This document shows, in pieces, positions 5,676 to 19,540 of a stretch of DNA of 38,875 nt. The notes below the pieces were generated by a model. It saw nothing but the letters and a program-made list of their open reading frames with translations. It was not told where the DNA came from and did no database searches. Made by a program: the position numbers and the translations under genes. The DNA comes from Clostridiales bacterium (GTDB lineage Bacteria > Bacillota > Sulfobacillia > RBS10-35): assembly GCA_018729555.1 (NCBI GenBank), contig JAHHQG010000028.1, forward strand, positions 1-38,875, read 5' to 3'. Each line of letters starts with the position of its first letter. Position 1 is the stretch's first letter.

Positions 5676-5693
5676 AGGGACCCTCCTCCCCCC

Positions 5694-6263
5694 CTACACT
5701 TGGCGGGCCGACTCGTTAAGGCGAAGCAGCCCCGGAACCCAACGGCTGAAGCCTACCCAGGCGTCGGGCCGCACGCCGTCCAGTTCCTCCTGGCTCCACC
5801 AACGCAGAGGAGCACCTTCGGCCTCGGCGTCCCCGGGCACCTCCCAGACGGCCACCAGGGCGAGGCGATCCCGGTTCTCCGGCGTCCAGGGATCATGGAT
5901 CCAGGCGAGAAAACGCGGGACGCCCTCGAAAGGCCGCAAGCGCCACTCGTCCCGCACACGGCGCCCAAGCCACCGAAGGGCTTCCCCCAGACGCCGCTCG
6001 GCCGGGGGAACACCCTCCGCCATCTCGAAGGACTCCATCCCCAGAAGCCCCACGTGCCTTCTCCCATAATCCAGCACGGCCACCCTGCCGCCGCGCACCA
6101 CCATCAAACCCAGCCAAAGCGAAATCTCCTCTTCGGGATGAATGGTCGAAACGGGCAGCAACCGGCCCAGCGCCCAGCGGCTGAAGACGTCCGCGCCATC
6201 AAAGGGCCGCACCCCGCGCCAAAGATCCCCCCGGTAGCGTTTGAGGTCCAGCGAAAGGAACAC
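5694..6263 (-). CDS. Hypothetical protein upstream of the sigma factor
   Basis: Encodes 189 residues, Trp- and Arg-rich (for example RPFEGVPRFLAWIHDPW and WVGFSRWVPGLLRL). The layout (a central strand-rich segment SLWLGLMVVRGGRVAVLDYG, then an acidic helix and LALVAVWEVPGD) vaguely recalls Nudix-like folds seen in phage proteins, but no Nudix box is present, so no function is assigned. GTG at 6263 with GGGAGGG six bases upstream. Eighteen bases separate it from the downstream sigma factor gene, so the two are likely one operon. Confidence 0.6.
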   Translation of the reverse strand: MFLSLDLKRYRGDLWRGVRPFDGADVFSRWALGRLLPVSTIHPEEEISLWLGLMVVRGGRVAVLDYGRRHVGLLGMESFEMAEGVPPAERRLGEALRWLGRRVRDEWRLRPFEGVPRFLAWIHDPWTPENRDRLALVAVWEVPGDAEAEGAPLRWWSQEELDGVRPDAWVGFSRWVPGLLRLNESARQV

Positions 6264-6360: not shown

Positions 6361-6780
6361 GTGAACATCCCCCGCGAACCCCTGGCGCGGGCCCTCACCG
6401 AGAACGACGAAGTCCTTTTCAACCGGGTGATCATCGCCCACAGCTTCTGGCAAAAACTCTTCGGCCTTCTCCCTTACCCGCCGCTCCAGCCCGGCGAAGC
6501 CATGCTCCTCCCCTACACCCGCCGGGTCCATACCTTTGGCATGCGCTTCCACATCGATGTGGGATACCTCGACAAAGAGGGGAGGCTTCTTTATGTCGAA
6601 ACCCTGCCGCCACAGCGGCTCGGATCCTTTCTCCGCGCGGCCGCCCATGTCCTTGAAGCCCCGAAAGGCTCCCTCGAAAACCTTCCTCCCCGCTCCCGGA
6701 TCCTCTTCGCCCCGCTTCAGGGAGAAACGACGCCGAGGGAGACGAAAAGCCAGACGGGAAGCGGTGTCGCCAGCAGGTAG
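6361..6780 (+). CDS. DUF192 family protein
   Basis: Encodes 139 residues. The segments FWQKLFGLLPYPPLQPGEAM, LLPYTRRVHTFGMRFHIDVG, YLDKEGRLLYVETLPPQRLG and AAHVLEAPKGSLE follow the DUF192 (COG1430) pattern: a small beta-rich domain with conserved H-T-FGM-R-F-ID. The biochemical role of the family is not established. Many family members are secreted, but this one lacks a signal peptide. GTG at 6361 was chosen because AAGGAGG lies six bases upstream; the longer frame from 6241 overlaps the opposite gene. Its 3' end overlaps the lipoprotein gene on the other strand by 64 bp. Confidence 0.8.
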   Translation: MNIPREPLARALTENDEVLFNRVIIAHSFWQKLFGLLPYPPLQPGEAMLLPYTRRVHTFGMRFHIDVGYLDKEGRLLYVETLPPQRLGSFLRAAAHVLEAPKGSLENLPPRSRILFAPLQGETTPRETKSQTGSGVASR

Positions 6781-8315: not shown

Positions 8316-9356
8316 ATGGGCCAGATCCTGGCGACGGAGGAGTTTCTGAAAACCAATCGGACCGCCTTCGCCCCGGACTTCCAGGAAGCTATCGATATGG
8401 CCGAAGGAGCCCTTGAGGCCGCCCTGGAGAGGGGCTTTTCCCACTGGGTCCTCACCTATTCGGGAGGAAAAGATTCCACGGCGACGACCGTTCTCACCTT
8501 GGAATGGCTGAAGCGTAAGGGCTACCCTGTCAAAGCCCATGTGATCTACGCCGATACGGGCCTGGAGATCCCGACTCTGCACGCCCAGGCCCAGGAATTC
8601 CTGCATGCACTGCAGGAGCTACACCCGGAGGTTTCGGTCCACACGGCGAAACCGGAAGCCGAAGAGAGTTTTTGGGTGAACCTCATCGGGAAGGGCTATC
8701 CGCCACCCCACAACCGCTTCCGGTGGTGCACCCGGCGACTAAAGGTCGCCCCCATGGACGCTCTTGTGCGAACGCTTGATGGAAAGGCGCTCATCATCAC
8801 GGGGGTTCGCTTCGGCGAATCGGATGCCCGCGATGCCCGCATGCACCTCTCCTGTTCCAGGGGTGGGGAGTGCGGCCAGGGCGTCTGGTACGAGGAAAGC
8901 CACAGGCTTGGAGCAGGGTATTTGGCGCCCATCGCCTTCTGGCGGGAATGCTTCGTCTGGGACTACGTTTCGTTGGTGGCGCCTTCCTTGGGCTATCCGA
9001 CGAAGGCCATCGAGGAGATCTACGGCGGAAGGGACACCCGCTTCGGGTGCTGGATCTGCACGGTGGTACGCCAGGACCGGGCCATGCAAAAGGTCGTCTC
9101 CAGCCCGGAAGGGCGGCGGTACCTTCCCCTGGCGGAATTCCGCACCTGGCTCAAGGAATTCACCGAACAGCGGGAGAATCGGGTCCTGCGGTCCAACGGA
9201 GTGCCCGGGCGGCTCACCCTCCGCGCGCGCCGCGCCATCTTGGAGCGGCTCCAAAGGACGGAAGCGGAAACCGGAATGAGGCTCCTTTCGCCTGAAGAAC
9301 ACCGCCTTATCCTGCGGTACTGGCAATGGGGCCGCTACGGCGATTCATACCGGTAG
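8316..9356 (+). CDS. DndC-like PAPS reductase-family protein (orphan)
   Basis: Encodes 346 residues of the adenine nucleotide alpha-hydrolase/PAPS reductase family. The PP-loop SGGKDST is at about 49-55. Cysteines at about 138 (FRWCTRR), 180 and 186 (CSRGGEC), 245 and 248 (GCWIC) fit an iron-sulfur cluster site, and the C-terminal order (TVVRQDRAM, pL.eFr.WL, R....NG.PGRLTLRARR.IL) matches DndC, the sulfur-activating protein of DNA phosphorothioation. No dndB, dndD or dndE is nearby, so it is an orphan: a phosphorothioation relic, a tRNA/nucleotide thiolation enzyme or a phage-type PAPS reductase-like protein. ATG at 8316 is nine bases after GGGAGG; the ATG at 8307 touches that SD. Confidence 0.8.
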   Translation: MGQILATEEFLKTNRTAFAPDFQEAIDMAEGALEAALERGFSHWVLTYSGGKDSTATTVLTLEWLKRKGYPVKAHVIYADTGLEIPTLHAQAQEFLHALQELHPEVSVHTAKPEAEESFWVNLIGKGYPPPHNRFRWCTRRLKVAPMDALVRTLDGKALIITGVRFGESDARDARMHLSCSRGGECGQGVWYEESHRLGAGYLAPIAFWRECFVWDYVSLVAPSLGYPTKAIEEIYGGRDTRFGCWICTVVRQDRAMQKVVSSPEGRRYLPLAEFRTWLKEFTEQRENRVLRSNGVPGRLTLRARRAILERLQRTEAETGMRLLSPEEHRLILRYWQWGRYGDSYR

Positions 9357-11994: not shown

Positions 11995-12243
11995 GACCGC
12001 TTCGCCGGTTCTTCGCCCATGGCCCGCCTTTCGGAACGGGGCCAGGGCCGGGGTCCGGGGAGAAAGACGAGGGGGTTTCGGGGGGGCGGCCTCGGCCCAG
12101 GGCGCGGTCGGCAAGGCCAGGCTCTTCGCTGATTTTTTACCGATCGTTCGCCCTCAACCCGGGGGCAGGGGGTCTCCCTGAGAACGACTCTGGCAAGGGA
12201 GGCGTTGGGTTTTTAGCTATTCTTTGATTCCCAGGCAGGGGGT
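11995..12243 (+). other. Gap after dnaB
   Basis: No convincing gene. A frame 11991-12227 begins with a GTGA overlap behind GGGGAGG, but its 78-residue product is low-complexity Gly/Pro/Arg, so it is kept only as a possibility. A -10-like GCTATTCTTTG lies at about 12216-12226. An ATCGTTC element like the iteron core occurs near 12142. No clear T-run terminator follows dnaB. Confidence 0.4.
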
Positions 12244-12358
12244 CCTCGGCCCGAGGCATGGATGGGCGGGGTTTGAGCGTTTTCGGCGAGGCGCACCGGC
12301 TTCCCGATTAGGGTTTTGTGCTATCATTTGACTATCAAAACCAAAGGAGGTTGTCGGC
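12244..12358 (+). promoter_or_regulatory. ssb promoter region, copy 1 of a duplication
   Basis: This 115-bp segment is repeated almost exactly at 17089-17201. It contains CCTCGGCCCG (12244-12253), an extended -10 like TGC TATCAT (12322-12327) and an inverted repeat GGTTTTG (12312-12318) / CAAAACC (12336-12342) spanning the -10, likely an operator. AAAGGAGG follows directly. Confidence 0.7.
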
Positions 12359-12724
12359 ATGAACAAGGTTTTTCTCATCGGCAGGCTGGCGCGGGATCCG
12401 GAATTGAGGTATACGGCGGCAGGCACCCCGGTAGGTAAGTTCACGTTGGCGGTGGACCGGAATTTCCAGAATGCCAACGGTGAGCGGGAGACGGACTTCA
12501 TCGACGTGGTGGTCTGGCGGCAGCTGGCGGAGACCTGCGCCAATCACCTAGCGAAAGGACGGCTGGTGGCCGTGGCGGGAAGACTTCAGATCCGCTCCTA
12601 CGATGCCCAGGACGGTCAGCGGCGCCGGGTGGCGGAGGTCGTGGCGGAGGAGGTGAAGTTCCTGGATAAGCGGAAGGCGGCCTTGGATGCGGAAGAAGAA
12701 GAAGTCGAAGACAGCGTGTTCTAA
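12359..12724 (+). CDS. ssb: Single-stranded DNA-binding protein
   Basis: Encodes 121 residues, a compact SSB with one OB fold: MNKVFLIGRLARDPELRYT, the GKFTLAVDR strand, ETDFIDVVVWRQLAETCANH and KGRLVAVAGRLQIRSY follow the family closely. It coats single-stranded DNA as a tetramer. The linker is very short, and the last residues EVEDSVF replace the usual DDIPF tip that recruits partner enzymes; the acidic run and terminal Phe remain. Length is below the usual 150-180. SD AAAGGAGG eight bases before ATG. Own terminator at 12733-12770. Confidence 0.93.
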   Translation: MNKVFLIGRLARDPELRYTAAGTPVGKFTLAVDRNFQNANGERETDFIDVVVWRQLAETCANHLAKGRLVAVAGRLQIRSYDAQDGQRRRVAEVVAEEVKFLDKRKAALDAEEEEVEDSVF

Positions 12725-12732
12725 GGCAGGAC

Positions 12733-12770
12733 GGGGCTGGGGGGGGAATAACCCCGGCCCCTTCTCTTTT
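12733..12770 (+). terminator. Rho-independent terminator of ssb
   Basis: GGGGCTGGGG (12733-12742) pairs with CCCCGGCCCC (12752-12761), followed by TTCTCTTTT. Confidence 0.85.
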
Positions 12771-12779
12771 GGTCATCTG

Positions 12780-12810
12780 AGCGGGTCCTAACGGCAGGGC
12801 CCGCTTTTTT
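12780..12810 (+). terminator. Second terminator-like stem-loop
   Basis: AGCGGG (12780-12785) pairs with CCCGCT (12800-12805), followed by TTTTT. It lies 10 bases after the ssb terminator, so transcription from ssb is doubly insulated. Confidence 0.7.
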
Positions 12811-12844
12811 CACCTAGGATCCGTGGGCTTTCCCCCTTCGGCAT

Positions 12845-12858
12845 ACGGTATAATGATA
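12845..12858 (+). promoter_or_regulatory. Promoter with consensus -10
   Basis: TATAAT at 12849-12854 in ACGGTATAATGATATC is the best -10 match in the window and lies 35 bases before the ATG at 12890. Confidence 0.6.
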
Positions 12859-12889
12859 TCAGAAAACCGTAACGAAAGGGGTATGGGCG

Positions 12890-13090
12890 ATGGAGACAAA
12901 GCAGGTCACGTATCGGGCCATGTGGGCGCGGGGGGTCAAGCTGGTGCACCGGGCGTTCCTCCTCTCGGTGGAACCCACCTACTACGCCAGCCGGGAGGTC
13001 ATGGAGCGAAGGCTCGATAGGATCAGGTCGCTCCTCCACGAGGCGATGGGATACCTCACGTCGGAGGAGGACCCTCTGGAGAGCCGGTAG
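12890..13090 (+). CDS. Small hypothetical protein
   Basis: Encodes 66 residues, starting METKQVTYRAMWARGVKLVH. Mostly helical and basic in its first half, with VEPTYYASREVMERRLDRIR in the middle and an acidic C-terminal end. No recognised family. GAAAGGGG lies about nine bases upstream. Flanked by a consensus -10 in front and a strong terminator behind, so it is a complete single-gene unit, which supports it being real despite its size. Confidence 0.6.
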   Translation: METKQVTYRAMWARGVKLVHRAFLLSVEPTYYASREVMERRLDRIRSLLHEAMGYLTSEEDPLESR

Positions 13091-13096
13091 AGTCTG

Positions 13097-13130
13097 CAGG
13101 GCCCGCCCCTATGCGGGCCCTGTTTTTGTT
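13097..13130 (+). terminator. Rho-independent terminator
   Basis: CAGGGCCCGC (13097-13106) pairs with GCGGGCCCTG (13113-13122), followed by TTTTTGTT. Confidence 0.9.
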
Positions 13131-13154
13131 AGCTTCGAAGAGGGAAGGGGGGCG

Positions 13155-13481
13155 GTGATTGCAATGATAACGATCCAGCGGCATGTCTATGGGCGCAAGC
13201 CGAATTGGATCGCGCGGATCGACGGGCGCGACAAAACCTACGGTCTTTCGCGCCGGTTCATCCACCGGCGCGATGTAACAAGGCACCGGACCAATGTCTA
13301 CCGGGAATATGAATGGGTGGTCGATCTCACGGAGGGTGTCATCTACGAATACTGCTTCGCCATCAGCTCTGGCCAGGAAGAGCGTGGCTTCTGGCGCGTG
13401 AAGGGCGGCCAGCTGGTGGAGGTGAGTTACCAGGAGGTGCTGGAGGCTTTCCCGCAAGAAGGCGGCCACGGTCCCGCGTGA
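13155..13481 (+). CDS. Hypothetical protein
   Basis: Encodes 108 residues, rich in Arg, Tyr and Trp (TIQRHVYGRKPNWIARIDGR, then REYEWVVDLTEGVIYEYCFA), probably a small beta-rich protein. No family recognised. The GTG at 13155 has AAGGGG five bases upstream; an in-frame ATG at 13164 is an alternative that would remove three residues. No promoter is obvious between the terminator and this start. Confidence 0.6.
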   Translation: MIAMITIQRHVYGRKPNWIARIDGRDKTYGLSRRFIHRRDVTRHRTNVYREYEWVVDLTEGVIYEYCFAISSGQEERGFWRVKGGQLVEVSYQEVLEAFPQEGGHGPA

Positions 13482-13616
13482 TTCGGGGGTCACGTCTCGG
13501 CAGGGGGGATCCCTCGGCCCGGTCCCAGGAGGGCGCGGGAAACACTTGGCCTGCGGGTTCTTCGGTTTTCGGTTTATGGTATTCTTTTATTAGCTTGAAG
13601 GAAGGGGGCGCTACCC
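13482..13616 (+). promoter_or_regulatory. Promoter region with CCTCGGCCCG motif
   Basis: CCTCGGCCCG at 13512-13521 is followed 58 bases later by an extended -10, TGG TATTCT (13580-13585). GGAAGGGGG precedes the GTG at 13617. The same motif-then--10 order recurs at 14340-14402. Confidence 0.55.
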
Positions 13617-13826
13617 GTGAGCGAGACTTTTTGCCCAGGGGAAAGGGTCTATGTTCTCAGGGACAATAAGGCGGGACGGCTGGAGGGGTTCGGGGTGGTC
13701 GTCCGCTACTATCGCAACAACGCGTGGTGGGTAAGATTGGAACCCCATCACACCGAGACAGTCTTCGATCAGAAAGAGATTTTCCCCGTCGTCGATGGGG
13801 AGAAGAAGGGAGGGGAGCGGCCATGA
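13617..13826 (+). CDS. Small SH3/KOW-like hypothetical protein
   Basis: Encodes 69 residues: CPGERVYVLRDNKAGRLEGF, then GVVVRYYRNNAWWVRLEP, a pattern of strands like small SH3/KOW or Tudor-like barrels, followed by an acidic-basic tail. Function unknown. GTG at 13617 with GGGGG upstream. Its stop overlaps the next start (ATGA), so the two are coupled. Confidence 0.6.
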   Translation: MSETFCPGERVYVLRDNKAGRLEGFGVVVRYYRNNAWWVRLEPHHTETVFDQKEIFPVVDGEKKGGERP

Positions 13827-14017
13827 CGCCGAAGGCCAGAGAAGCGCTTGAAAAGATCTTGAGGTACGCCCATCTGTACGGAGCCAAAAAAACCGAGCGG
13901 CTTCTCAACGAATTTTTGAAAACATACCCGAGCGCCAAGGCGGACGAGGTGGTCCAGATCATGCGGGAACGCGGCATGGCGGCCAGGGTTGAAAAAGGGA
14001 AGAAAGGCCGGACCTGA
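13823..14017 (+). CDS. Small basic helical protein
   Basis: Encodes 64 residues, starting MTPKAREALEKILRYAHLYG, with two or three helices and a very basic tail ending KKGRT. It may bind DNA or a protein partner, but no family is recognised. The ATG overlaps the preceding stop and GGGAGGGGAG lies upstream. Confidence 0.6.
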   Translation: MTPKAREALEKILRYAHLYGAKKTERLLNEFLKTYPSAKADEVVQIMRERGMAARVEKGKKGRT

Positions 14018-14038
14018 CCCATGGAAGGAGGGAGAACC

Positions 14039-14281
14039 GTGCTGTTGTGGGAAAAGCCCACGCGGATCGAAGAACGGCAAGGGATTGCGGCCGTTGCCGA
14101 GGCGCCCTACGGATTCTGGTTCATTCGTCGGCGCCGCGACGGAAAGCTTTATGTGGTCCTAAGCACTTTCGGCAGCCCGTATTACCGGGCCCTGCCTGGG
14201 CTGGACGGCAAGCTGTTCGATACGGTCGAGGCGGCCCGGGCGGCGGTTGAACAATATCTCGGGAAACCGGCGCCGCAATAG
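14039..14281 (+). CDS. Hypothetical protein
   Basis: Encodes 80 residues starting at GTG 14039 (then LLWEKPTRIEERQGIA). A strong SD GGAGG lies seven to eight bases upstream, which favours this start over the ATG at 14021, which has none. The product is probably a small alpha-beta protein (FWFIRRRRDGKLYVVLST, then DTVEAARAAVEQYLGK); no family recognised. Confidence 0.6.
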   Translation: MLLWEKPTRIEERQGIAAVAEAPYGFWFIRRRRDGKLYVVLSTFGSPYYRALPGLDGKLFDTVEAARAAVEQYLGKPAPQ

Positions 14282-14440
14282 GAGGACTTCTTCGCGGGGG
14301 CGGGTTCGCGGCCGGGCGGAGCGGGTTTTTAAGGGAGGCCCTCGGCCCGCAAGGGTGAGACGGCTGACGTCGGGGTTTTACGGTGGCGCTTTGTGGTATT
14401 CTTTTTGTACCAGCAAGCAAGGCAGAGAGGAGGAGGCGCG
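14282..14440 (+). promoter_or_regulatory. Promoter region with CCTCGGCCCG motif
   Basis: CCTCGGCCCG at 14340-14349, then an extended -10, TGG TATTCT (14397-14402), 47 bases later. GAGAGGAGGAGG lies just before the ATG at 14441. No gene is seen in these 159 bases. Confidence 0.55.
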
Positions 14441-14800
14441 ATGAAGGGTGAGCAGGTAAAGGGAGCGGGGATCGTTTCTGAGAGCATCGTGACCTTTGAG
14501 GACGCGGTGGACTGGGCGCTTTCGGTGATGCGTGATGTTATGATCCGCAAGCAGCGGGATTACGGCAGCGGCAACATCAGCGCTTTCGGCGAATTTGGAG
14601 TGCTGGTGCGGGCCAGCGACAAGGTGCACCGGCTAAAGAATCTCCTGGAGAAAGCGGAGAAGGGCCAGGTTCCGCAGAATGAGCCTCTTTTCGATAGCTG
14701 GCTGGACCTGGCGAACTACGGCCTTATCGGAATGCTTTTGCAGTCCGGTCTCTGGGGGCTGCCGATGGAAGAAGAACTCTCGTGCGAAACCGGGAGCTAA
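14441..14800 (+). CDS. DUF1599-type nucleotide-related protein
   Basis: Encodes 119 residues. The segments RKQRDYGSGNISAFGEFGVL, RASDKVHRLKNLL and EPLFDSWLDLANYGLIGMLL match the DUF1599/nucleotide modification-associated domain 1 family of phage and element proteins, an all-alpha fold related to MazG-type nucleotide pyrophosphohydrolases, with the conserved RKQ.DYG and DKV.RL motifs. A role in nucleotide or modified-base metabolism is likely but unproven. ATG at 14441 behind GGAGGAGG. Its stop codon lies inside the hairpin loop of stem III of hammerhead ribozyme 1. Confidence 0.75.
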   Translation: MKGEQVKGAGIVSESIVTFEDAVDWALSVMRDVMIRKQRDYGSGNISAFGEFGVLVRASDKVHRLKNLLEKAEKGQVPQNEPLFDSWLDLANYGLIGMLLQSGLWGLPMEEELSCETGS

Positions 14801-14854
14801 CCCCGGTCGCCCGCAAAACCCCGCCCCGTCGCGGGCCTGATGAGCAGGGGGCGG
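14783..14854 (+). ncRNA. Type II hammerhead ribozyme 1
   Basis: Core elements occur in type II order: GAAA (14786-14789), stem III CCGGG/CCCGG (14790-14794 with 14802-14806), GTC with cleavage expected after C14808, stem I GCCCGC/GCGGGC (14809-14814 with 14831-14836), then CTGATGAG (14837-14844). Stem II is short, GCA (14844-14846) with TGC (14783-14785). The stem I loop CCGCCCC (14821-14827) pairs with GGGGCGG (14848-14854) as a 7-bp pseudoknot. The stop TAA of the upstream gene (14798-14800) lies in the stem III loop. Confidence 0.88.
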
Positions 14855-14879
14855 CAAATAGGAGCAGTGTAGAAGGGGG

Positions 14880-15179
14880 ATGGTGCTGGTGTGGGAAGTT
14901 GTGGACTCCAAATACGGATACATGCTGGTACGAGACGGCGACCGGTGGTCGGTGGTGCGGGAATACGGCGAAGAAGGCAACCAGGTGGCGGCGGTCATGC
15001 CGGGAGATCAGCCTGGAGATGGGCTCACCGCCATCGCGAAGCTCACGTCTATGGGCATTGGATCTATTACGCGTGGGTACAGCCGCTCCTATGCGAAGCG
15101 GGTGTATAGGGACCGGGTGCGGCAAGCCCGGGAATGGTACGAATGGTACGGGGGCAGGGACGAGACCGACGAAGACTAG
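14880..15179 (+). CDS. Small hypothetical protein after ribozyme 1
   Basis: Encodes 99 residues, with VVDSKYGYMLVRDGDRWSVV strands followed by a helical, Tyr/Arg-rich end (RSYAKRVYRDRVRQAREWYE). No family recognised. The ATG at 14880 directly abuts the SD-like AAGGGGG, so the GTG at 14889 (nine bases away) may be the true start, losing three residues. It begins 26 bases after the pseudoknot strand of hammerhead ribozyme 1 and its stop is immediately followed by ribozyme 2. Confidence 0.6.
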   Translation: MVLVWEVVDSKYGYMLVRDGDRWSVVREYGEEGNQVAAVMPGDQPGDGLTAIAKLTSMGIGSITRGYSRSYAKRVYRDRVRQAREWYEWYGGRDETDED

Positions 15180-15180
15180 A

Positions 15181-15253
15181 GTGAAACCGGGGATTACTCC
15201 CCGGTCGTGGCCAAAAATACCCCGGCGTCGGCCACCTGATGAGCAAGGCCGGG
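15181..15253 (+). ncRNA. Type II hammerhead ribozyme 2
   Basis: GAAA (15183-15186), stem III CCGGGG/CCCCGG (15187-15192 with 15199-15204), GTC with cleavage expected after C15206, stem I GTGGCC/GGCCAC (15207-15212 with 15230-15235), CTGATGAG (15236-15243). Stem II is only GC with GT (a G-U and a C-G pair). Loop I CCCGGC (15221-15226) pairs with GCCGGG (15248-15253). It begins two bases after the upstream stop. Confidence 0.86.
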
Positions 15254-15278
15254 CGGTGTTAATAAGGGGGAAGTTGAT

Positions 15279-15653
15279 ATGTGGTTAAAAGACGGTATGG
15301 AGCGTATGGCGCAGCGGAAAAAAGAACGTCTTGAACGAAACCGTGACGCGATCGAGATCGCTGGCCGTCTAGTACCCGGGAAGGTGCTGGACGTCACCGA
15401 GACGGCCGGGAGGGGCGGCCGCCGGTATGTTGATGTGTATATCGAAGATAACAAAGGAGAAGAGAGAAACGTTCATCTCGCGTTTGATAACAACGAGTTG
15501 AAAGCCGTCGTAGTCGACAAGGCTGGTATGGTAAAGGTGGCCGACGAGTGGCGAGTATATCACCATCGCTCTTATGCCGACTCGGACCCGATCGCGTACA
15601 CCGCGACGTTTGAAGACGCCGTTGCCGAACTGACTGCACGTGGTCTGCTGTAA
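15279..15653 (+). CDS. Hypothetical protein after ribozyme 2
   Basis: Encodes 124 residues: a very basic N-terminal helix (KDGMERMAQRKKERLERNRD) then a beta-rich part (GRRYVDVYIEDNKGEERNVH, LKAVVVDKAGMVKV). No family recognised. AAGGGGGAAG lies about eight bases before the ATG. It lies between hammerhead ribozymes 2 and 3, so cleavage would release it as a single-cistron RNA. Its codons look less GC-biased than those of the replication and pilus genes. Confidence 0.65.
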   Translation: MWLKDGMERMAQRKKERLERNRDAIEIAGRLVPGKVLDVTETAGRGGRRYVDVYIEDNKGEERNVHLAFDNNELKAVVVDKAGMVKVADEWRVYHHRSYADSDPIAYTATFEDAVAELTARGLL

Positions 15654-15659
15654 GGAATC

Positions 15660-15734
15660 GCGAAACCGGGGAGTAGCCCTCCCCGGTCGGCACCAAATCA
15701 CGCCCGCGTCGGTGCCCTGATGAGCATGGCGGGC
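15660..15734 (+). ncRNA. Type II hammerhead ribozyme 3
   Basis: GAAA (15662-15665), stem III CCGGGGA/TCCCCGG (15666-15672 with 15680-15686), GTC with cleavage expected after C15688, stem I GGCACC/GGTGCC (15689-15694 with 15711-15716), CTGATGAG (15717-15724). Stem II is two pairs (GC with 15660-15661). Loop I GCCCGC (15702-15707) pairs with GCGGGC (15729-15734). Confidence 0.88.
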
Positions 15735-15750
15735 CGGAAAGGAGATCGGT

Positions 15751-15966
15751 ATGGCCAGGGCTGTCTACCGTGTGCGGTTAGAAGAAGGGCGTATCATTGA
15801 GGTTCCGCTTGCTGAGTGCCCACACCCGTTTTGCGACGTCATAAGAATGAGGTGCTCTGAATGCGGGCAGCACTACTCGTACTGCCTAAGCCACGAGGAG
15901 TTCACGCGCCACCATCGGTGCCGGTGCCATGGGCCGCGCGCCGAAAACGGCGGTTTGGACCCCTGA
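15751..15966 (+). CDS. Small Cys/His-rich zinc-binding protein
   Basis: Encodes 71 residues. Cysteine and histidine residues are dense: CPHPFC, RCSECGQHYSYC, then HEEFTRHHRCRCH, enough for two zinc sites. This suggests a small DNA-, RNA- or protein-binding zinc finger. No exact family recognised. AAAGGAGA precedes the ATG by about six bases, 16 bases after hammerhead ribozyme 3. The next gene starts 17 bases downstream. Confidence 0.7.
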   Translation: MARAVYRVRLEEGRIIEVPLAECPHPFCDVIRMRCSECGQHYSYCLSHEEFTRHHRCRCHGPRAENGGLDP

Positions 15967-15983
15967 GGGGAAGAAGGAGTGAC

Positions 15984-16193
15984 ATGACACCGGAAGAGTT
16001 TCGGCGCGCTGTACAAAGGTTTTTCGGCGATCGGGCGTTTGAGGTTCACGTCGATGCCATGGAGTACATCGGGCGTTGGGACGGGTTCACCTTGAAAGGG
16101 TATCCGTGGTCCCACTTCATTGACATTTTCTGGGATGGACGTCAGATCGGAACCCTTAATCCCAGCGAGATCATGACCGAGGCGGTGAGATGA
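15984..16193 (+). CDS. Small hypothetical protein
   Basis: Encodes 69 residues (MTPEEFRRAVQRFFGDRAFE, then HFIDIFWDGRQIGTL), probably a small alpha-beta protein; no family recognised. GAAGGAG lies six to seven bases upstream of ATG at 15984, which favours it over an upstream frame that would overlap the zinc protein gene. Last member of the ribozyme-punctuated array. Confidence 0.6.
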   Translation: MTPEEFRRAVQRFFGDRAFEVHVDAMEYIGRWDGFTLKGYPWSHFIDIFWDGRQIGTLNPSEIMTEAVR

Positions 16194-16575
16194 TGATGCT
16201 TCGCTGAAGTGTTCATGGGTGGTGTTGATGAGGAACATCCAGGAGCGGATCCTTAAGGCGCTCCAGCAGGACTAGGGATTTTAGGATCGATTAGGATCGA
16301 TTGCGATGGCAAGCCTTTAAGACGTGTTCCTCGGCCCGGAACGATAGGGCGGGTCCTATCACGGCATCCTTATGGGCAAATCGTTCGGTTGCGGTTTTCT
16401 GGATCCACGAGTACGCCGCGATTTTCCGGGAGGCCGGGTCTTCCACCTCCGCCTTGGAGGCGCCAAGGACCGCGCCCAGCCCCAAACAGCTTCTGGCATG
16501 GCTAGAGGCTATCGCGCGGTCGCCTTTTTCCTTATGGTATTCTTTGAGTAGATTCGAGAAAGGAGAGGTGACAAG
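16194..16575 (+). other. Long gap with promoter and repeats
   Basis: No convincing gene. It contains a possible 18-19-codon peptide frame ending at 16275 without a good SD, a perfect tandem TTAGGATCGA (16281-16290 and 16291-16300), another CCTCGGCCCG (16329-16338) and an extended -10, TGG TATTCT (16538-16543), before GAAAGGAGAGG. Frames run through it on both strands (minus 16291-16485, plus 16301-16666) but neither has an SD. It may be a decayed gene. Confidence 0.45.
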
Positions 16576-17031
16576 ATGGTTCTTGCGAAAAAAGCGGCGG
16601 AAGCATTGTCCTGGCTTGAATGGCGGGAACAGCTACGGGAGGATGGCAGCATCCGGTCTTACGTAGCCGCCAGGGATGGGGCTCCGGAATGGATCCAGGA
16701 ATTGATCTACGCTGCCCATGATCATGGGCGATGGCTCCCTGATGATCACGTCTACGAAGCGGTCTATCGCATTTTGGAGGCTCTGGCTAGGGAGGCATCT
16801 GAAGACGATGTGCACCTGGAACCGCCGGTGACGTACGAAGAGCTTTTGGCGTGGCTCACCGACGGAGCAGGGGCCATCGAGGCGGTGGATTACGTGCTGG
16901 ACGAAATAGTGGATTACGTGCTGGACGAAATACCCGTCTCCCGGCAGGGTCTCTGGACACTGCTGGCGGCGGCCTGGGGAGAGTGGGCCGAAGAGATCAA
17001 GGAGCGGGTGGTGGAAAGCCTGCAAGACTAA
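16576..17031 (+). CDS. Acidic hypothetical protein with tandem duplication
   Basis: Encodes 151 residues, acidic and helical (APEWIQELIYAAHDHGRWLP, VYEAVYRILEALAREASEDD). An exact 24-base tandem repeat encodes VDYVLDEI twice in a row (about residues 105-120), a recent in-frame duplication. No family recognised. GAAAGGAGAGG precedes the ATG. Single gene behind its own promoter; the duplicated ssb-type promoter follows. Confidence 0.65.
   Translation: MVLAKKAAEALSWLEWREQLREDGSIRSYVAARDGAPEWIQELIYAAHDHGRWLPDDHVYEAVYRILEALAREASEDDVHLEPPVTYEELLAWLTDGAGAIEAVDYVLDEIVDYVLDEIPVSRQGLWTLLAAAWGEWAEEIKERVVESLQD
16887..16934. repeat. 24-bp tandem duplication in a gene
   Basis: GTGGATTACGTGCTGGACGA plus AATA occurs twice back to back. 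The reading frame is kept. Confidence 0.9.
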
Positions 17032-17088
17032 GGGGTTAGGGCGTCGTCCGGGCTGGCGGCGCCCTACCGTCGCACTGGGGAGGGTGGC

Positions 17089-17201
17089 CCTCGGCCCGAG
17101 ACACGGACGGGCAGGGCCTGAGCGTTTTCGGCGAGGCGTACCGGCTTCCCGATTAGGGTTTTGTGCTATCATTTGACTATCAAAACCAAAGGAGGATCGA
17201 C
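17089..17201 (+). promoter_or_regulatory. Second copy of the ssb promoter region
   Basis: About 90 percent identical by eye to 12244-12358, including CCTCGGCCCG (17089-17098), TATCAT (17167-17172), the GGTTTTG/CAAAACC inverted repeat and AAAGGAGG. The last 65 bases before the SD are almost perfectly conserved. Confidence 0.75.
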
Positions 17202-17534
17202 ATGGCGCCGAAGGATCCCAGACCACACCCCGACAGCGACTCTGCATGGAAGTACTACGATTACGGGATTACCGATGTTTGGGGCAGGAAAGTCTATGTC
17301 GCGTTCTTTTTTGGAAAGTTCGCCGGGTTGCGTTACCGGCGGACGGACCGAGAGATGAAACAGATTAAGGGAAACGTGCAGCAGTTAGGCGTGTCGAGGT
17401 GGGCGGATTGCCCGGTTGATGTCCTGCCGCCCGATCTTATCCGCACTTTTGCGGCGGGGATGATGGGGGGAGAGGGAGAAAGTCACCCCACAGAAAGGAG
17501 GCAGCGAAATGATTTCGGCTCAGGTCGCCGTTAG
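17202..17534 (+). CDS. Hypothetical protein under the ssb-type promoter
   Basis: Encodes 110 residues (DSAWKYYDYGITDVWGRKVY, then VAFFFGKFAGLRYRRTDREM), a soluble protein without recognised domains. Its promoter and SD are a copy of those of ssb, so the two are probably expressed and regulated together. The C-terminal 26 residues overlap the next gene, which has its own strong SD; the overlap is unusual but not impossible. Confidence 0.6.
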   Translation: MAPKDPRPHPDSDSAWKYYDYGITDVWGRKVYVAFFFGKFAGLRYRRTDREMKQIKGNVQQLGVSRWADCPVDVLPPDLIRTFAAGMMGGEGESHPTERRQRNDFGSGRR

Positions 17535-17739
17535 GTTGGGCAGTCTTGGGACGCTTGCCCGCCTGGACGAGGCGCTTTCGGGGCTTCGGTACAGCAATTG
17601 GGTTGAGGGCATCTTTTCCTATTACCGGTTTCGGGATTGTTCGGTTCTGGTGGTGTGGCACGACGGCCAGCGGGGATGGATTTGGGCGGCTTTGCCCGGG
17701 CGCCCGGGCTGTCCTGAAGCCGAAGGGGAAACCCCTTAG
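17509..17739 (+). CDS. Small hypothetical protein
   Basis: Encodes 76 residues, starting MISAQVAVRLGSLGTLARLD, with CSVLVVWHDGQRGWIWAALP near the end, a short alpha-beta protein. No family recognised. AAAGGAGG precedes the ATG by eight bases. It overlaps the previous gene by 26 bases in another frame. It ends about 50 bases before the tail of the opposite-strand recombinase. Confidence 0.55.
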   Translation: MISAQVAVRLGSLGTLARLDEALSGLRYSNWVEGIFSYYRFRDCSVLVVWHDGQRGWIWAALPGRPGCPEAEGETP

Positions 17740-17785
17740 GAAAGAACGGTCGCCCCGGCGGAGACATAGGCGGAAAGGGCGCGGC

Positions 17786-19540
17786 CTAGGTGGGTAGCGT
17801 CCCACCGATAACGGCGGCGCCTCTTCTTTGGATCCGCAAGAGCTTTTCCACCATCGCTTTTTTGCCGCGTCTTTGGGCCACCGCCAAGGCCTCCTCCACC
17901 GCCAGAAGGGTGAGAGGCGTTAAAGGGTCCGGCGGGTTCTTCGCCGGGCCATCCAGGGGACCCCGGGAGGCATAAATATACGTCACCTCGATCCGGCCAT
18001 GGCCCAACAGCGCCGAGACGATAAACCGTCTGACATCCGCCGGGACCCCTTGCTCCTGCAAGTCTTTCAGCCACCTTTGGGCATACGCGTGGCGAAGCCC
18101 GTGATGATGCAAATGGGTGGCCTCACCCCGGACACGGCTAAGCTCCGTCTGCAACCGCGCCTGGGCCAGGTGGGTTTTGTCCTTCTCCCTCAGAAAAGGC
18201 AAAAGCCTTCCCGGATGACGCGAAAGGGCCTCTTCCAGAATCGCCGCCGCGCGATCCGTCACCGGCACAAAGCGGATCCGGCCGCCTTTTCCCCGCACCC
18301 GCAACCGCCTTCCCGCCAGTCCCGCCACGATGTCCTTTCGACGTAGGCGAAAAACCTCCACCAGCCTTAACCCAAGCTCCCAGCTGAGATCCACCACTGC
18401 CCGGCTTTCCTCCGAGAGACGCTCCCGGATAGCCCGGTACTCATCTTCCTGCCAGGCGTCGCTAAGGTCGATCGCCTCTTCCTCTTCCTCCGGCGAAGAA
18501 AACCTTACCCCAAGTTCTTCCAGGGAGGCGGGGAGGGGCCGCTCCGCAGCCCGCCCCATCACTCCCATGAGAACCTCCGCCGCGCGAAAACTCGACCAGT
18601 ACACCCGCGCCGTCTGCGCCGTGAGCTCCTTCGTTCCGAGAAACTCTTTCACCAAACCCGGCGCCAGCTGGCCTAGGGGCTTTCCCGTATACCGCTCCCA
18701 CTCACGCCACCGCTCCACGTAGCCGAAAAAGGTCTTGGCCGAAAGGGGCGGAAACCTCCAGAAGCGACTCACGATATGCCCCGCCCGAATAAACCTCGGA
18801 TGGGGACGGCCCAGGGGAGGCACCGCTGGTACCCTCGGATCCACCTTTTTCAGCAGCGCCGCCGCCTCCGCTCGCCGGTCCCCGCGCCAGGACTTCTCCC
18901 CCAGATACACTTCCAGGGACCGGTCTTCCCCAGGGTCCCTTCCCCAGACCCACAGCAAATAATCGGTCGCCCACCGGTACCGGCGCGCCTTCTCGTGCTT
19001 CTCATAGCCCCGGTACTCCCTTTTGATCCAGCTCCTGATCTCATCCAGTTTCCGCACCTCGCCAGGCGTCAGGTGCCACAGCAGCCGCCCCCGGTACCAG
19101 AGATGACCGTACCCCAGATGTTCCGCCAGTACCTTGGCTTCCCTCGCGGCTTGATAACTGCTCACTCCCCGCGCTCTCTCGTAACGGCGAAAGGCTTCGA
19201 TGTGCTCCGGATACACCCACCGCCAGGAAGCCACCCGGCAACGGATCCCTAAATAATCCCGAAATTTCCGGAGCACGTAGACGTTCCGCTTCCGCGTGGC
19301 CGCGCTCCCACGACGACCCAAACGCACTAGCCGCATTTCATCCAGTTCCCGCTCAAGTCTTGATAGCGTCGGGCCTGTCCCGCTCTCCAAACGGCGGGAC
19401 CACTGCGAACGGTGGGGAAATACCCGGCAGTCCACATGGGTGGCTGTCCAGCGGCAACCTCTCCCGGCTTCGCCGCAAAGGGGGCAGGGAACCTGGGCCT
19501 CTCCGCCGGGGTGAACCCCTTTTTGGGCATAGACAACCAA
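17786..19540 (-). CDS. Tyrosine recombinase with N-terminal zinc-finger motif
   Basis: Encodes about 584 residues. The C-terminal catalytic domain has the expected set: Arg in ELGLRLVEVFRL, HHHGLRH (H480, R483), LLGHG (H514) and the nucleophile candidate Y523 in EVTYIYASRG, nine residues after that His. The length is nearly twice that of usual phage integrases. A likely metal motif (CPLC, C, H, C at about 19-38) lies at the extreme N-terminus, with one or two arm/core-binding domains after it. It could integrate the element or resolve multimers. TTG at 19540 with GGGAG nine bases upstream was chosen; the frame is open up to 19738, so the N-terminus is uncertain. Confidence 0.85.
   Translation of the reverse strand: MVVYAQKGVHPGGEAQVPCPLCGEAGRGCRWTATHVDCRVFPHRSQWSRRLESGTGPTLSRLERELDEMRLVRLGRRGSAATRKRNVYVLRKFRDYLGIRCRVASWRWVYPEHIEAFRRYERARGVSSYQAAREAKVLAEHLGYGHLWYRGRLLWHLTPGEVRKLDEIRSWIKREYRGYEKHEKARRYRWATDYLLWVWGRDPGEDRSLEVYLGEKSWRGDRRAEAAALLKKVDPRVPAVPPLGRPHPRFIRAGHIVSRFWRFPPLSAKTFFGYVERWREWERYTGKPLGQLAPGLVKEFLGTKELTAQTARVYWSSFRAAEVLMGVMGRAAERPLPASLEELGVRFSSPEEEEEAIDLSDAWQEDEYRAIRERLSEESRAVVDLSWELGLRLVEVFRLRRKDIVAGLAGRRLRVRGKGGRIRFVPVTDRAAAILEEALSRHPGRLLPFLREKDKTHLAQARLQTELSRVRGEATHLHHHGLRHAYAQRWLKDLQEQGVPADVRRFIVSALLGHGRIEVTYIYASRGPLDGPAKNPPDPLTPLTLLAVEEALAVAQRRGKKAMVEKLLRIQRRGAAVIGGTLPT

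Follow-up and report, generated by a model that had tools for sequence, protein, structure and literature searches.

The window analyzed here, a stretch of 38,875 nucleotides, is the entire contig C21. Families recognized among its scanned genes include DnaB, an SSB-domain protein (a second SSB was noted by eye at 12359), a ParM-like protein, a tyrosine recombinase, a RuvC-like protein, and sigma-70 regions, along with RcpC/CpaB, T2SSE, and T2SSF, which we read as a Tad-type pilus. One protein of 1228 a.a. matched four plasmid records and no phage record, and phage structural families were absent among the 20 window proteins compared to PHROGs and the 20 compared to Pfam (49 genes predicted). 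The carrier looks plasmid- or ICE-like and is not an evident prophage. It holds a co-directional run of small genes, with three candidate self-cleaving ribozymes (R1–R3) at the gene boundaries:

14389–14402, forward strand: recurring motif CTTTGTGGTATTCT, promoter-like by eye and similar to an extended −10; it precedes the gene run with the ribozymes
14441–14800, forward strand: 119 a.a. gene upstream of R1, weak DUF1599 match
14783–14859, forward strand: predicted type II hammerhead R1 with core, helices, and pseudoknot potential (52.5 bits with our covariance model R1, 34.2 bits with RF02276); stem II UGC/GCA, GAAA at 14786–14789, stem I GCCCGC/GCGGGC, core CTGATGA at 14837–14843; predicted cleavage after C14808; loop I strand CCGCCCC pairs with tail GGGGCGG
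14880–15179, forward strand: 99 a.a. gene between R1 and R2, with a 99% identical protein on contig C37
15180–15258, forward strand: predicted type II hammerhead R2 (36.7 bits with model R1, 18.3 bits with RF02276); GAAA at 15183–15186, stem I GTGGCC/GGCCAC, core CTGATGA at 15236–15242; predicted cleavage after C15206; pseudoknot CCCGGC with GCCGGG
15279–15653, forward strand: 124 a.a. gene between R2 and R3 (start placed at 15306 by the gene caller)
15659–15739, forward strand: predicted type II hammerhead R3 (44.6 bits with model R1, 23.0 bits with RF02276); GAAA at 15662–15665, stem I GGCACC/GGTGCC, core CTGATGA at 15717–15723; predicted cleavage after C15688; pseudoknot GCCCGC with GCGGGC
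15751–15966, forward strand: Cys/His-rich 71 a.a. ORF downstream of R3, with a C37 homologue (84.5% identical over 71 a.a.)

The DUF1599 match of the 119 a.a. product (nucleotide modification associated domain 1) scored 21.3 bits, under the cut-off of 25, and the 99, 124, and 71 a.a. products had no Pfam or PHROG match. The 71 a.a. ORF was skipped by the gene caller, its support being the homologue on C37. Motifs near YTTTRTGGTATTCT precede small-gene runs at 13572, 14389, and 16530 on the forward strand (three in the window versus a mean of 0.21 in shuffles), and a similar motif occurs on contig C1 of the same genome before a paralogue of the 119 a.a. gene. This motif is possibly an extended −10 promoter; a sigma-70 consensus scan of 12000–18000 returned no promoter. 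Given that the ribozyme-bearing genes lie between the promoter-like motifs at 14389 and 16530, R1–R3 may share one transcript. A direct repeat of ~118 bp (91.5% identical), both copies of which end in GTTTTGTGCTATCATTTGACTATCAAAACCAAAGGAGG, flanks the ribozyme stretch at 12234–12350 and 17078–17195.

R1–R3 share one element order, comprising the stem II 5′ strand, GAAA, the stem III hairpin, GTC, the stem I hairpin, CTGATGA, and the stem II 3′ strand. The catalytic core (GAAA ... UH ... CUGANGA) is complete in each (as GAAA, GUC, and CTGATGA), and the type II permutation is present, with loops closing stems I and III and stem II left open. Stem I measures 6 bp in all three motifs, and stem II measures 3 bp in R1, 2 bp in R2 (one pair being a G-U wobble), and 2 bp in R3. 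Loop I is 16–17 nt long with an A-rich 5′ part, and its pseudoknot strand lies 3 nt 5′ of the stem I 3′ strand, separated from it by a GTC linker in all three motifs. This strand is complementary to the 3′ tail over 7 (R1), 6 (R2), and 6 (R3) Watson–Crick pairs, the tail beginning 4, 5, and 5 nt past CTGATGA, respectively.

This anatomy agrees in most respects with an earlier sequence-only reading of the window, which had placed three type II hammerheads between the small genes. The motifs lie where it put them, the GAAA, GTC, six-pair stem I, and core occur in the type II order it gave, stem II is as short as it stated (two or three pairs), the loop I strands CCGCCCC, CCCGGC, and GCCCGC are complementary to the tails, and the predicted sites C14808, C15206, and C15688 coincide with the GUC cytosine of R1, R2, and R3, respectively. 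Some of its statements require amendment. Stems were said to differ between the copies while remaining paired; pairing is indeed kept, but the first six pairs of stem III are identical in R1–R3 and its length alone varies. All three motifs were also called intergenic, which does not fully apply to R1, where the stop codon of the upstream gene (TAA, 14798–14800) lies inside loop III.

Matches of this kind are rare by chance. With a strict criterion (stem III and stem I of 6+, stem II of 2+, and a pseudoknot of 6+ Watson–Crick pairs), three motifs were found in the window versus none in 600 dinucleotide shuffles, and at the loose scanner setting, such shuffles averaged 0.05 motifs. The search with the Rfam type II model that had been proposed as a check came out mixed: RF02276 matches all three (R1 34.2, R3 23.0, and R2 18.3 bits) and is the only Rfam family matching 14600–16000 at E up to 10, but no RF02276 match reaches the gathering cut-off of 37 anywhere in the window. 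In the whole-genome search, R1 was the only one of the three among the matches listed (150 of 1443 first-look candidates scored). Five RF02276 matches outside the window (C18, two on C19, C16, and C1; 14.5–22.1 bits) were taken as chance, since this search also gave matches in 10 of the 14 control genomes, all of them short of the cut-off. The recall of RF02276 at its cut-off is low, with 19 matches among 56 scanner motifs (12 loci) and, in 15 further loci, 16 matches versus 32 scanner motifs (one of the 16, L074:8077-8145, being absent from the scanner motifs). Because this cut-off misses many motifs, we built our own covariance model (model R1).

Model R1 was trained on 37 of 51 listed references, none from the genome under study, although 11 of the 37 came from one viral contig, one (L043) came from a genome of the same class, and one row (L065:8443) is misaligned in stem III. 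Across the 2.27 Mb genome, the model returned matches of 52.5, 44.6, 41.3, 37.7, and 36.7 bits, followed by 15.2 bits (150 of 2128 first-look candidates scored). The top five are R1–R3 and two further copies on contig C37, so a model made from foreign sequences ranks the three reported motifs among the genome's best five. The sequence-only reading had treated a missing covariance-model match, combined with a lack of cleavage in vitro, as evidence against itself; such a match was obtained for each of R1, R2, and R3 (52.5, 36.7, and 44.6 bits). Within the same class, 8 of 154 genomes, the source genome counted, have a model R1 match at E up to 0.001. The other seven comprise G038 (the source of L043), G148 (L100, intact by the scanner), three genomes with weak matches of 22–24 bits, and genomes G031 and G062, whose matches (L101 and L103) look degenerate by eye, stem I being affected in one and the core in the other. 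Most of 39 stretches from genome contigs were taken as chance matches, the structural scanner passing only L020, L023, L035, L039, and L043. Length limits then removed four of 100 scanner rows, namely L020 and L039 (Pseudomonas, long loop I), L073:6643, and L076:5754, leaving a wider set of 96 motifs from 32 loci, five of them from the source genome.

Compensatory change was found in stems I and III in both a close and a wider set of relatives. The close set (R1–R3, one C37 copy, L043, and two motifs from viral contig L073; thus, four of seven from the source genome) had all 98 of 98 stem cells paired, 12 of which were changed on both sides (shuffled mean of 3.4; none of 500 as high). Stem I holds four of the five pairs changed on both sides, owing to the near invariance of stem III. 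Among 37 wider relatives, 98.8% of 508 cells were paired and 108 were changed on both sides.

For the pseudoknot, we considered the 87 motifs with a stem II of at least 2 bp, dropping nine of the 96 rows for a shorter stem II. Figures from all 96 rows lean toward the claim, since the filter admitted rows with a stem II below 2 bp only if the pseudoknot had at least 4 pairs; those from the 87 rows do not. At least five Watson–Crick pairs form in 55 of the 87 motifs, versus 10.2% of 2610 tails drawn from other loci, and excluding the five motifs of the source genome leaves this picture intact (50 of 82 versus 10.8%). The pair count of each window loop I with its own tail was matched by one of 91 foreign tails. 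Within the window, the loop I of R1 also forms 6 pairs with the R3 tail and the loop I of R3 forms 5 pairs with the R1 tail (both in the canonical register range), so the covariation once claimed among the three copies is weaker than supposed: pairing is kept in each, but only R2 is clearly private. This weakness follows from the GC-rich pseudoknot strands, and it is the wider family, rather than R1–R3 by themselves, that argues for the predicted pseudoknot. We also considered mutual orthogonality of the tandem copies, in which stem I and the pseudoknot diverge against cross-pairing. This idea is unsupported, given that R1 and R3 cross-pair and that tail swaps within a locus pair better than those between loci (at least five pairs in 34% of 404 versus 11%).

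Nested RNA folding did not return the active fold, with minimum-energy structures keeping stem III and not stem I (by eye) and z-scores of −0.70, −0.87, and −0.96 for the window copies and +0.42 for the C37 copy. Such folding is unable to show stem I and the pseudoknot together because the two cross; GC-rich misfolding of R1–R3 is also possible. The unfavorable nested folds, the Rfam scores under the cut-off, and the two same-class matches that look broken by eye (stem I; core) would suit decayed or inactive hammerheads kept by hitchhiking. We regard this as very unlikely, since the copies of this genome retain the core letters and the pairing of stems I and III, and since stem I stays paired in both R3 and its C37 counterpart despite its different sequence in the two.

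Another alternative takes R1–R3 for spacers of hairpin type, terminators, REP-like repeats, or attC-like sites of recombination. In its favor, stem III forms a strong hairpin close to a stop codon, and the small ORFs are cassette-like and sit in an element with a tyrosine recombinase. However, the core letters and three closing helices recur in the 96 motifs at 32 loci (the letters being demanded by the scanner), the helices covary, and no terminator-like site was found at R1, R2, or R3. The attC consensus is GTTRRRY / RYYYAAC, and neither half occurs within R1–R3. Terminator or REP hairpins and attC-like sites were rejected on these grounds, and a reading without ribozymes appears extremely improbable.

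Motifs of the wider set, for which the scanner demands the core letters GAAA, UH, and CUGANGA, are packed against genes much as R1–R3 are. A Shine–Dalgarno-like string and start follow within 90 nt in 88 of 96 motifs, compared to 31% of 4800 random same-strand places, at a median distance of 27 nt from the core; these placement counts are non-independent, given that some motifs are closely related and many come from a single contig. An upstream stop codon was identifiable for 92 motifs, 70 of these stops ending 1–10 nt before GAAA, nine ending 13–18 nt into the motif (in loop III by position), and 13 lying farther upstream. None of the 92 stops end between the first two zones, where the sequence of GAAA and stem III leaves little room for a stop codon. 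The control for stop codons is weak: within equal reach, 74% of random places also have a stop upstream.

The densest example is the viral contig IMGVR_UViG_3300033551_000003 (64,814 bases; L014 and L080), which supplied the 11 viral training sequences of model R1. It carries 32 model matches on one strand within 18.6 kb (record positions 42611–61255), often one per small gene. In two stretches of this contig, 20 of 31 ORFs with a Shine–Dalgarno sequence have a hammerhead core at most 60 nt upstream, versus none of five ORFs on the opposite strand. A megablast comparison of stretch L080 to named phages gave no match.

Taken at about 90% probability, our reading from sequence is that R1–R3 are self-cleaving type II hammerheads with a stabilizing pseudoknot, located in the co-directional small-gene run of a mobile element and likely cutting mRNA. 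Each ribozyme would fold in the mRNA where the upstream gene ends and cut 3′ of the C of GUC. The upstream mRNA would then carry the stem III hairpin and a 2′,3′-cyclic phosphate at its 3′ end, and the downstream mRNA would start with a 5′-OH and the stem I hairpin, shortly before the Shine–Dalgarno sequence. If the run is indeed co-transcribed, a single operon transcript would be divided into one-gene mRNAs with structured, presumably protected ends, which could set mRNA lifetime and translation gene by gene.

The source genome also allows internal comparisons. Much of the window has a collinear sister in contig C1 (53,350 bases), with 22,926 of 38,875 bases covered by blastn pieces of 72–89% identity; no hammerheads were found on C1. 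In place of the ribozyme stretch (window 12567–17810), C1 has 2.6 kb without a match, and matches of the stretch to C1 total only 343 bases, at other C1 places. The 119 a.a. gene has a paralogue at another C1 location, which lacks a ribozyme and finishes simply with a stop codon and Shine–Dalgarno sequence; its homology stops at window position 14779. A PAPS-reductase-family gene at window 8316–9356 has a C1 homologue (86%) near this paralogue, outside the collinear order.

Contig C37 has four blocks in common with C21, two of which contain ribozymes and sit separately on C37, between other genes. The first (14866–15253, 99.2% identical) holds the 99 a.a. gene and R2, the copy of which is identical from GAAA to CTGATGAG; the second (15683–15946, 89.4% identical) holds R3 and the 71 a.a. 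gene. The R3 counterpart (C37:5803-5879) is diverged, with a core of CTGAAGA; stem I and core position 7 differ between the two, with pairs intact in both. Position 7 of the core is described as any nucleotide (PMC10085705). The other shared blocks (17223–17475 and 17497–17711) contain no ribozyme, including at their ends. Between the ribozyme-bearing blocks on C37 lies a TnpB-like gene (L015:3401-4849; OrfB_IS605 and Cas12f1-like TNB domains).

These breakpoints raise the alternative that the hammerheads, although real, serve mainly as seams in the DNA: the conserved stem III sequence where genes end would let accessory genes be swapped by homologous recombination, with RNA cleavage secondary. 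Three of the four ends of the ribozyme-holding C21/C37 blocks fall at a ribozyme (14866 is just past R1, 15253 is the R2 end, and 15683 is within R3; the fourth is 15946), R2 moves with its upstream gene and R3 with its downstream gene, and homology to the ribozyme-free C1 paralogue breaks just before R1. We nevertheless consider this unlikely, as it draws on few breakpoints in one genome, the other two common blocks end at no ribozyme, any spacer between shuffled genes might give the same breakpoint picture, and conservation follows the letters used in RNA catalysis. A combination of both roles can be offered tentatively: type II hammerheads may be portable gene-boundary units in mobile elements, gained and lost at stop/Shine–Dalgarno junctions, that act as seams for swaps of small accessory genes and give each swapped gene a separate mRNA, which would keep the expression of cargo genes independent of their neighbors. 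Since the upstream stop codon lies against or within the ribozyme, the ribosome terminating there might also set the time of cleavage.

The type II hammerhead reading of R1–R3 is supported, and the kind is already published. Perreault et al. 2011 (PMC3088659) described natural type II hammerheads with the pseudoknot between loop I and the 3′ tail, a 2 bp stem II, and copies clustered between prophage genes. A majority of published members have this pseudoknot, and the earlier reading was correct that one is reported for some type II hammerheads. The same study reports that three natural tandem hammerhead arrays cleave in vitro, one also in E. coli, that 4 of 18 consensus-matching hammerheads showed no cleavage, and proposes mRNA processing by tandem hammerheads. 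A 2017 review notes that hammerheads often flank small ORFs and calls their prokaryotic role open (PMC6155905), and bacterial ribozymes are described as overrepresented close to Mu-like phage genes and to other ribozymes (PMC10085705).

R1–R3 share with the RF02276 family, as described in PMC3088659, the permuted order, open stem II, core, 2 bp stem II, pseudoknot, and clustering beside genes. They differ in their scores under the cut-off, their loop I of 16–17 nt with an A-rich 5′ part, the GUC linker, a GC-rich pseudoknot of 6–7 bp, and a plasmid- or ICE-like carrier rather than an evident prophage. The closest published arrangement we noted is the ardA array of Agrobacterium tumefaciens, in which three hammerheads likewise flank individual genes (PMC3088659), a likeness drawn without regard to hammerhead types and involving other genes and another host. 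Cleavage of that array was seen in vitro and in E. coli. What appears new here, relative to the literature consulted, is mainly the location of R1–R3 and their tight packing against genes, to which we add a plasmid- or ICE-like carrier, a sister element without ribozymes, some shared blocks ending at ribozymes, and the packing of stop codon, ribozyme, and Shine–Dalgarno sequence. One genome thereby offers natural comparisons of a related backbone with and without ribozymes (C21 and C1) and of the same genes with other neighbors (C21 and C37). The architecture of stop codon, ribozyme, Shine–Dalgarno sequence, and start codon is recurrent, with as many as 32 repeats on a single viral contig, which makes the idea of mRNA segmentation directly testable.

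Finally, a second ribozyme class was seen beside a hammerhead. No twister-P5 (RF02684), a self-cleaving ribozyme with a fold unrelated to the hammerhead, reached the Rfam cut-off in the window. On viral contig L011, a twister-P5 above the Rfam cut-off (5677–5735) lies ~0.8 kb upstream of a type II hammerhead (6525–6601) on the same strand, a hint that self-cleaving ribozymes of different classes perform one and the same function.
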